From Sphingomonadaceae bacterium (GTDB lineage Bacteria > Pseudomonadota > Alphaproteobacteria > Sphingomonadales > Sphingomonadaceae): a stretch of DNA of 64,000 bases. The translations under genes were made by a program, and so were the position numbers. A model generated the notes under the pieces. That model had not been told where the DNA came from, did no database searches, and was given only the letters and a program-made list of their open reading frames with translations. Of this stretch, positions 14,386 to 57,104 are shown in pieces. The stretch covers positions 1 through 64,000 of the forward strand of contig JANYGC010000055.1 of assembly GCA_025359425.1 (NCBI GenBank), given 5' to 3'. Every line of letters starts with the position of its first letter. The first letter of the stretch is position 1.

Positions 14386-14473
14386 GCCCCTCCCCGGTGG
14401 GGAGGGGTTGGGGTGGGGGTTCGACACCGGCGTGGAACCCCCACCCCTCGATCCCCTCCCCACCGGGGAGGGG
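14386..14473. repeat. GC-rich paired palindromic intergenic element (REPIN-like), copy 2
   Basis: cccctccccggtggggaggggttggggtgggggttcgacaccggcgtggaacccccacccctcgatcccctccccaccggggagggg. Confidence 0.75.
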
Positions 14474-14533
14474 AGGAATTGTCGCGGTTTGTGCTTGCGC
14501 GGGCGGGTGAAACTCGCAATTGCGCGGGACATT

Positions 14534-54694: not shown

Positions 54695-55159
54695 ATGGCC
54701 AATCTTGATTCGATCGATCGCCGTCTATTATCGGAGCTTCAAGATGAAGGGCGGGTGACCAACGTCGAGCTCGCCAGCCGCGTCGGCCTGACCGCGCCGC
54801 CCTGCCTGCGCCGGGTCCGCGCGCTTGAGGAACTGGGCGTGATCCGCGGCTACCACGCCGATCTCGATTCGTCGAAACTGGGATTTGCGATCACCGTGTT
54901 CGCGATGGTCAGCCTCAAGAGCCAGGCCGAAGAAGCGCTGCGCCAGTTCGAAGATGCGATGAAAGACCTGCCCGAAGTGCGCGAATGCCACATGCTCAAC
55001 GGCGAGATCGATTTTATCCTGAAGATCGTCAGCAAGGATTTGCAGAGCTTTCAGGAGTTTCTGACCAGCAAGCTGACGCCCGCGCCGAATGTGGCGAGTG
55101 TGAAGACGAGTTTGACGATCAGGACGGCGAAGCAGATGCCCGGGGTGCCGTTGGAGTAG
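54695..55159 (+). CDS. Lrp/AsnC family transcriptional regulator
   Basis: LDSIDRRLLSELQDEGRVTNVELASRVGLTAPPCLRRVRALEELGVIRGYHADLD. Confidence 0.95.
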   Translation: MANLDSIDRRLLSELQDEGRVTNVELASRVGLTAPPCLRRVRALEELGVIRGYHADLDSSKLGFAITVFAMVSLKSQAEEALRQFEDAMKDLPEVRECHMLNGEIDFILKIVSKDLQSFQEFLTSKLTPAPNVASVKTSLTIRTAKQMPGVPLE

Positions 55160-55172
55160 TTCGAACAAAGAA

Positions 55173-55235
55173 CCCCTCCGTCACGCCCTTCGGGCGCGCC
55201 ACCTCCCCGTTTGTGCTTCGCAAAAACGGAGAGGA
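55173..55235 (+). repeat. Two-hairpin palindromic repeat, copy a
   Basis: cccctccgtca-cgcccttcgggcg-cgccacctccc-cgtttgtgcttcgcaaaaacgg-agagga. Confidence 0.85.
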
Positions 55236-55254
55236 TCGGAAAAAGCCTTCTTGG

Positions 55255-55318
55255 TCCTCTCCTTTTTCACGAAGTGCAAAAGGGGAGGTGGCAGTCGCTT
55301 TTGCGACTGACGGAGGGG
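55255..55318 (-). repeat. Two-hairpin palindromic repeat, copy b (inverted relative to a and c)
   Basis: Reverse complement cccctccgtc-agtcgcaaaagcgact-gccacctcc-ccttttgcacttcgtgaaaaagg-agagga. Confidence 0.9.
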
Positions 55319-55321
55319 CCT

Positions 55322-55675
55322 TCAACGCTTGCAATAGCGAACCAAAGCCTCGGCGATTTCCTCTGGCGATTTGAGCACGTCGGTCGCCGGAATTCGCATC
55401 ACCTCAATTCCATCCGCACGCAATTCGGCATCGCGCTCGTCGTCGCGCGCGGGGCGGTCGCCCATGCTGTGCGCAATGCCGTCGACTTCGATGCAAACCT
55501 TTGCCTTCGCGCAATAGAAATCGAGGACGTATTTACCGTGCCGCTCCTGGCGGCGAAAGTGCACGCCACCAGGCGATTTTCGGAGCAGGTTCCACAAGAG
55601 TACTTCGGGCAAACTCATGTTTTGCCGCAGCTCGCGCGCCTTCGACAGGTCTCCGCTGCGTGGCTTGCGTGGCAA
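55322..55675 (-). CDS. DUF559 endonuclease-like domain protein
   Basis: ARELRQNMSLPEVLLWNLLRKSPGGVHFRRQERHGKYVLDFYCAKAKVCIEVDGIAH ... DDERDAELRADGIEVMRIPATDVL; TTG start at 55675 with ggagg upstream. Confidence 0.92.
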   Translation of the reverse strand: MPRKPRSGDLSKARELRQNMSLPEVLLWNLLRKSPGGVHFRRQERHGKYVLDFYCAKAKVCIEVDGIAHSMGDRPARDDERDAELRADGIEVMRIPATDVLKSPEEIAEALVRYCKR

Positions 55676-55679
55676 TTTA

Positions 55680-55740
55680 CCCCTCCGTCAGCCCTGCGGG
55701 CTGCCACCTCCCCTTTTGCACTTCGTGAAAAAGGAGAGGA
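55680..55740 (+). repeat. Two-hairpin palindromic repeat, copy c
   Basis: cccctccgtc-agccctgcgggct-gccacctcc-ccttttgcacttcgtgaaaaagg-agagga. Confidence 0.9.
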
Positions 55741-55751
55741 CCAAAAAACGC

Positions 55752-57104
55752 TTACACGTTTTTCCGCTTCGCCAGCCACTCCTCCAGCCACTTGATCGTG
55801 TAGTCCCCGTTGATGAAATCGGGGTCCTTCATCAGCGCCTGATGGAGCGGGATGCTCGTGTTGACCCCGCCGATCACCATCTCCTCGAGCGCGCGTTTGA
55901 GGCGCATGATGCAGCCTTCGCGGGTGCGGCCTTTGACGATCAGCTTGGCGATCATCGAATCGTAGTACGGCGGGATCCGATACCCGGCGTAGAGCCCGCT
56001 ATCGACCCGGACGTTCATGCCGCCGGCGGCGTGGTAATTGGTGACGAGGCCGGGTGAGGGGGTGAAGTTCCACGGGTCTTCGGCGTTGATCCGGCATTCG
56101 ATCGCGTGGCCGTTGAACTCGACGTCTTCTTGGCGGACCGACAGCGGCTTGCCATCGGCAATGCGGATCTGCTCGCGCACCAGATCGACCCCGGTAATGG
56201 CCTCGGTGACCGGATGTTCGACCTGCAGCCGGGTGTTCATTTCGATGAAATAGAACTCGCCGTTTTCCCACAGGAACTCGATCGTGCCCGCGCCGCGATA
56301 GGCCATGTCGGCCATCGCCTTGGCGACGATCCCGCCCATGCGGTTGCGTTCCTCGGGCGTGATGACCGGCGAGGGGGCTTCTTCGAGCACCTTCTGGTGG
56401 CGGCGCTGGAGCGAGCAATCGCGCTCGCCCAGGTGGATCGCCTCGCCGTTGCCGTCGCCGAACACCTGGAATTCGATGTGGCGCGGATTGCCGAGGTACT
56501 TTTCGATATAAACCGTGGCGTCGCCGAACGCGGCCTTGGCCTCGCTCCCGGCCTGGGCAATCAGCGTTTCGAGCTCGTCCGGCCCGTTGCAGACCTTCAT
56601 GCCGCGCCCGCCGCCGCCCGATGCGGCCTTGATGATCACCGGGTAGCCGGCCTGCTCGGCGATCCGCTTGGCTTCGCCGATTTCGCTGACCGCACCGTCC
56701 GATCCGGGGACCAATGGCAGACCCAAGGCACCCGCGGTGCGTTTGGCCTCGATCTTGTCACCCATCGTGCGAATGTGTTCGGGCTTGGGCCCGATCCAGA
56801 TCAGCCCGTGCGCCTCGACGATGTCGGCGAACTGGGCGTTTTCGGACAGGAAGCCGTAGCCGGGATGGATCGCATCGGCGTGCGCGATTTCCGCGGCCGA
56901 AATGATCGCGGCCATGTTGAGGTAGCTGTCCTTGGCCGCCGGCGGCCCGATGCAGACCGCATGATCGGCGAGGCGCACGTGCATCGCATCGGCATCGGCG
57001 GTGGAGTGCACCGCGACCGTTTCGATCCCCATTTCGTGCGCGGCGCGGTGAATGCGCAGCGCGATTTCGCCGCGGTTGGCGATCAGTATCCGGGAAATGC
57101 CCAT
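55752..57104 (-). CDS. accC: Acetyl-CoA carboxylase biotin carboxylase subunit
   Basis: [30 protein letters not shown] ... [13 protein letters not shown] ... [22 protein letters not shown]. Confidence 0.97.

Follow-up and report, generated by a model that had tools for sequence, protein, structure and literature searches.

The closest described systems are those in which RAYT (TnpA-REP) transposases drive GTAG REPs and the REPINs built from them (PMC3116915, PMC8266576). A second set of palindromes, the CGTC-tagged REPs, was described by Di Nocera in 2013 as mostly alphaproteobacterial, with N. aromaticivorans and C. crescentus among the named hosts, and as apparently lacking a dedicated transposase (PMC3733652). 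DUF559 proteins have been discussed in other settings: Caulobacter VsrA, a DUF559 protein with the active-site spacing E73-D102-D115-H119, is reported to cause SOS induction when a cytosine methyltransferase is deleted, and the same 2026 paper treats VsrA as a mismatch-repair nuclease, proposed for very short patch repair (PMC12907096). In Legionella, segments carrying a transposase and DUF559 were described in 2025 as recombination hotspots (PMC12308824). We found no published link between DUF559 and REPs in the openly licensed PMC literature, to which our search was confined, and an earlier description elsewhere is not excluded.

A DUF559 gene between inverted REPs

The window analysed here, a 64,000-nt stretch of a Sphingomonadaceae bacterium genome (contig JANYGC010000055.1), contains three copies (a, b and c) of a ~65-nt element with the layout CCCCTCCGTCA - hairpin 1 - GCCACCTCCCC - hairpin 2 - GGAGAGGA (Table 1). 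Folding of the three copies gave an unpaired head, CCCCTCCGT(C), followed by hairpin 1, GCCA/CCA and hairpin 2, with z-scores against shuffles of -3.3, -5.0 and -3.6. A DUF559 gene is separated from b by 3 nt and from c by 4 nt, and both REP heads face it; an earlier sequence-only reading had placed the gene at this position, and the Pfam match and coordinates confirmed it, as they did a unit of ~490 bp in which b and c, inverted around the gene, form 47-nt arms of 98% complementarity. The same reading had paired a with b as a REPIN-type dimer. These two copies are indeed inverted (38-nt arms, 84%), but they stand tail-to-tail; it is b and c that are arranged head-to-head in the REPIN manner, with the DUF559 gene where REPINs have a ~20-nt spacer. 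The original observation is correct, and understated.

Table 1 Features of the DUF559 locus (window coordinates).
Feature	Coordinates	Strand	Description
Lrp/AsnC regulator	54695..55159	+	left neighbour; anchor for empty-site comparison
REP a	55173..55237	+	head CCCCTCCGTCA, two hairpins, tail GGAGAGGATC; outside unit
Putative mobile unit	55251..55744		494 bp; TTGGTCCTCTCC ... b - DUF559 - c ... GGAGAGGACCAA
REP b	55253..55318	-	inverted copy; head towards DUF559 stop codon
Stop-side inner end of unit	55319..55333	-	TGCAAGCGTTGAAGG adjoining CCCC
DUF559 nuclease	55322..55675	-	117 aa, start TTG
REP c	55680..55742	+	head towards DUF559 start
accC biotin carboxylase	55752..57104	-	right neighbour; anchor for empty-site comparison

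Elsewhere in the window (14389-14475), a REPIN-like pair from another family (CCCCTCCCCGGTGGGGAGGGGTTGGGGTGGGGG - 18 nt - inverted copy) stands head-to-head and resembles REPs found beside other DUF559 clades.

Membership of the protein in DUF559 (PF04480) is well above threshold (E = 5e-25; 87.8 bits against a gathering cut-off of 20.6). Its AlphaFold model (pLDDT 82, pTM 0.74) has as nearest PDB folds 3hrl, a gonococcal DUF559 protein, and 3r3p, the homing endonuclease I-Bth0305I, with a weaker match to Vsr (1vsr); I-Bth0305I and Vsr were also among the matches in sequence searches. The near-invariant residues E24, D52, E63, D65 and H69 occupy positions 17, 45, 56, 58 and 62 of the aligned domain, and all five of these catalytic-type residues (E, D, E, D, H) show 99-100% conservation across 156 proteins, which argues that DUF559 is under selection as a nuclease. 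The protein thus qualifies as a Vsr/EDxHD-type PD-(D/E)XK fold with intact catalytic residues. I-Bth0305I and Vsr share this fold and these residues, and the spacing in VsrA resembles that of the aligned DUF559 proteins. Unlike them, DUF559 is bounded by multicopy REPs and does not lie within an intron or intein. Linkage to a cytosine methyltransferase, the trait of Vsr repair genes, is not met in the window, where the immediate neighbours are Lrp/AsnC and accC.

In common with RAYT/REPIN systems, the locus has a small nuclease-family gene between inverted REPs, dispersed head-to-head REP dimers with a short spacer, cognate pairing of enzyme and REP type, and an intergenic location. It differs in its enzyme (an HUH tyrosine transposase there, a PD-(D/E)XK Vsr/EDxHD-fold protein here), in its head (GTAG there, CCCCTCCGTC or CCCTCACCCC-like here) and in its REPs, which have one or two hairpins each. 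We found no Y1_Tnp in the unit, so that an HUH transposase (PF01797) flanked by REPs is lacking, and we therefore class the unit as an analogue of RAYT/REPIN that stands outside that group. The element also shares with CGTC-tagged REPs the unpaired CGTC before the first stem, the CCA after it and the predominance of head-to-head dimers (PMC3733652). It departs from them in having two hairpins, with a second stem of CCTCCCC..GGAGAGG, and in the partner gene, DUF559, found here; moreover, many DUF559 REPs outside this clade lack CGTC. The first stem in the window is 5-7 bp with a loop of 3-4 nt, against 8-9 bp and 4-5 nt in the definition of the CGTC superfamily. As with MITEs and their parent insertion sequences, short derivatives share their ends with a coding parent, but the unit has no DDE, serine or tyrosine recombinase, and no target-site duplication was identified.

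Dispersed copies, empty sites and flanking repeats

The host genome carries 30 exact copies of CCCCTCCGTCA against 1 of the reversed control, and 81 copies of the fuller REP pattern against 0 of its reverse; reversed control patterns gave 0-2 matches per genome. Many of these copies are head-to-head dimers with a spacer of ~20 nt, mostly 19-21 nt. Both hallmarks of REP/REPIN repeats are met: multicopy dispersed palindromes forming hairpins, and head-to-head dimers with a conserved short spacer that vary among relatives. Spacers of the dispersed REPINs have ends with the consensus TATCGACGC.GGC, which corresponds to the inner end of the unit on the stop side; against shuffles, the fit was far closer there (z = 12) than on the start side (z = 4). 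For this reason we rejected an origin by simple deletion with retention of both gene ends, and fold-back of the stop-side end is the likelier origin of the REPINs. The dispersed dimers have the appearance of miniatures derived from the unit.

The sequence-only reading had called for a locus cleanly lacking the unit, and such a locus exists in the sister species (G287), whose accC and lrp proteins are both 99% identical to those of the window. There the site reads accC - 8 nt - one REP orthologous to a - lrp, and the 494-bp unit, b-gene-c, which the window has between accC and a, is missing as a block. Of two further relatives, one has a single degenerate REP at this site (G313) and the other none (G318). 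From these two further relatives we infer that REP a is probably older and that the unit was gained in the window lineage, loss in the sister remaining possible. Two dispersed REPINs also have empty counterparts: one (L013) is missing at the orthologous sites of both G287 and G313, the other (L027) at that of G313. No target-site duplication was recognisable at the window's empty site, to which this result is confined. Mobility of the unit and the REPINs is strongly indicated by these empty sites, although no transposition was observed.

For 131 distinct loci (Sphingomonadaceae, other Proteobacteria and other phyla), we then took as a score the best alignment, in inverted orientation, of the 350 bp on the left of the DUF559 domain with the 350 bp on its right, using 844 same-sized intervals elsewhere in the same loci as controls. 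A score of at least 20 was reached by 78% of DUF559 loci and 0.12% of controls, and a score of at least 25 by 66% and 0%, respectively, in line with the predicted enrichment of repeats beside other DUF559 genes. When phylum-level loci were added, 74% of 156 had inverted flanks, and most of the remaining DUF559 loci had REP-like motifs on one side or both. Inverted flanks also occur at DUF559 loci of Deinococcus, Azospirillum, a Novosphingobium plasmid and Caulobacter vibrioides. Within the window's own genome there are three further DUF559 genes, and all four have repeat elements of distinct families on both sides: a second CGTC-like type brackets the gene on contig C117, GGATGGGGGTG..CACCCCCATCC elements that on C20, and CCCATCCCCAACCC elements in mixed orientation that on C49. 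Counting against a general rule, E. coli ycjD and the Neisseria gonorrhoeae homologue showed REP-like elements on one side only.

The published dRS3 repeats are reportedly CGTC-1 REPs. A link to Neisseria through them and the gonococcal homologue 3hrl was considered but found no support: the gonococcal DUF559 locus has no dRS3-type palindrome (ATTCCC..GGGAAT) nearby, and its single REP-like element lies upstream.

Two DUF559 units with different REP types, one on C117 of the window's genome (L033) and one on a Sphingomonas parapaucimobilis plasmid (L318), occupy the same gene pair, the transhydrogenase alpha subunit and small proton-translocating subunit, as if at a repeated insertion site.

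In E. coli K-12 AB1157, the DUF559 gene ycjD adjoins REP-like elements (L319 1454-2020); places similar to the one at 1966-2020 number 19 in the median E. coli genome. Of 5426 genomes, 3309 have the downstream end of ycjD; in two genomes without it, sapF is followed by an MFS transporter.

Pairing of REP type and number with DUF559

The phylogeny of 116 DUF559 proteins requires 17 changes of REP cluster, compared with 47.1 for shuffled labels, and the CGTC-like type of the window falls on one side of a branch, albeit one with weak support (53). REP similarity to the nearest DUF559 relative in another genome is 0.64, whereas among DUF559 genes within one genome it is 0.31, no better than random (0.32); at 42 of 49 loci the REP is closer to that of the nearest DUF559 relative than to REPs of the same genome (p = 5e-9). 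Since REPs sharing a genome are no more alike than random pairs and those of a relative elsewhere are closer, the REP travels with the gene. The comparison shows that REP types tend to be specific to DUF559 clades, whatever the host genome.

Repeat number was surveyed in 121 genomes of the family, the counts being uncorrected for phylogeny throughout. Of 800 pattern copies, 756 belong to the 44 genomes that carry a DUF559 of the same subfamily as the one in the window. Any repeat at all was present in 42 of the 104 genomes having DUF559, and no copies were found in the 17 family genomes without it, so that repeats are not equally abundant in relatives lacking the gene. DUF559 presence also correlates with abundance: at least 5 copies occur in 19/44 genomes with the matching subfamily versus 4/77 others (p = 6e-7), and at genus level in 23/35 genomes with matching DUF559 versus 5/45 (p = 4e-7). 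There are exceptions in both directions, five of the 45 genus genomes without a matching DUF559, G310 among them, carrying 13-31 REPs and seven of the 35 with one carrying none. These are compatible with loss and persistence, yet the dependence of REPs on DUF559 is not strict. Taken together, these genome comparisons show association and cognate pairing of DUF559 and REPs.

Co-occurrence alone would also be expected if DUF559 were a host repair enzyme, a Vsr-like nuclease for mismatches or hairpins, by which REP hairpins are tolerated or cleared up. REP-rich genomes would then retain it, and the REPs beside it would act as terminators or insulators. The SOS induction reported for VsrA, its proposed role in very short patch repair and its active-site spacing, like that of DUF559 here, speak for such a function (PMC12907096). 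Host repair does not, however, predict REPs that bracket the gene on both sides, a REP type that follows the protein clade and not the genome, several DUF559 genes per genome each with its own REP, presence or absence of gene plus REPs as a block, or REPIN spacers resembling the end of the unit, and we regard it as improbable.

Candidate drivers of the REPs

It is also conceivable that DUF559 units are free-standing homing-type genes or passengers, inserting into or beside REPs whose spread depends on a different enzyme, such as RAYT or some other transposase; the nearest solved relatives of DUF559 do include a homing endonuclease, I-Bth0305I. We searched the 121 family genomes for PF01797 (Y1_Tnp) and read 20 of the loci. 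RAYTs are present in 24 genomes, and genomes with them tend to have more CGTC-type REPs (at least 5 copies in 12/24 versus 11/97), which favours a passenger. We cannot explain this correlation beyond general genome plasticity, the genes themselves being unlinked to the REPs. The 20 RAYT loci had unrelated inverted repeats or none, and no PF01797 match was found in several REP-rich genomes, including G040 (72 copies) and G064 (100 copies); RAYT was accordingly rejected as the driver of these REPs. Insertion would, moreover, pair DUF559 with the REPs of its genome instead of the type of its own clade, and the sister's site has REP a only, with no b/c pair awaiting a gene. The passenger hypothesis is very doubtful. 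That GC-rich palindromes are simply common and DUF559 genes happen to sit in repeat-rich intergenic DNA fits the GC-rich, intergenic nature of the repeats, but is already contradicted by the same-locus controls and the backward-read patterns and can practically be discarded.

Sphingomonadaceae Y1_Tnp (RAYT-like) genes often have flanking inverted repeats of their own, of type AATTCCGGGGACACAATACTTAA (L255-L268).

We thus consider it probable that b-DUF559-c is a mobile unit that encodes a nuclease, is bounded by REPs and works in the manner of RAYT/REPIN although its enzyme is unrelated; both cleavage and mobilisation are inferred. This supports the nuclease-driven RAYT/REPIN analogue of the sequence-only reading, which would have been refuted by repeats equally abundant without DUF559, by no enrichment beside other DUF559 genes or by the want of a locus without the unit; none of these held. 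The unit would be a minimal mobile element with a Vsr/EDxHD-fold nuclease as its sole protein and its own cognate REPs as its ends. The nuclease may recognise the head or hairpin of its own REP, most likely when the REP is extruded as a hairpin or cruciform or is single-stranded at a replication fork, and would cut at the head or tail boundary, although no cleavage has been observed. DNA so released or copied would be fixed elsewhere by host repair or replication: to our knowledge, PD-(D/E)XK enzymes do not form covalent DNA intermediates, so the joining would have to be supplied by the host or by some partner not yet identified. REPINs would be mobilised in trans, and they carry sequence like the stop-side end of the unit, as internally deleted or fold-back miniatures would. 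DUF559 would then stand to these REPs as RAYT (TnpA-REP) does to GTAG REPs. That DUF559 drives these REPs is likely but has not been shown, and cleavage of the cognate REP is inferred, as is the joining step.

These results suggest that DUF559 is the enzyme that had long been missing for one of the most common types of dispersed repeat in bacterial chromosomes, with DNA cutting again inferred. Beyond this family, a CCCTCACCCYAACCCTCTCCC-type palindrome lies beside ycjD of E. coli K-12 and at ~20 places per E. coli genome, and on balance we incline to the view that DUF559 genes are phylum-crossing minimal mobile elements and the source of a large share of bacterial REP-like palindromes. If so, REPs would have two unrelated drivers, HUH RAYTs and PD-(D/E)XK DUF559 nucleases; repeats published as having no dedicated transposase would gain a candidate enzyme, and a widespread unannotated family would be explained together with common 'junk' palindromes. 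The question can be tested in laboratory strains, including with ycjD of E. coli K-12. Nuclease-only REP mobilisation, if real, would mean that the RAYT/REPIN lifestyle had arisen twice independently, and it might provide hairpin-specific nucleases.

In one further genome (G310), CGTC-type REPs recur in a single orientation, for the most part at intervals of ~130-160 bp (G310:C1:60232-60896 and 928650-928961); this genome has no match to the matching DUF559.
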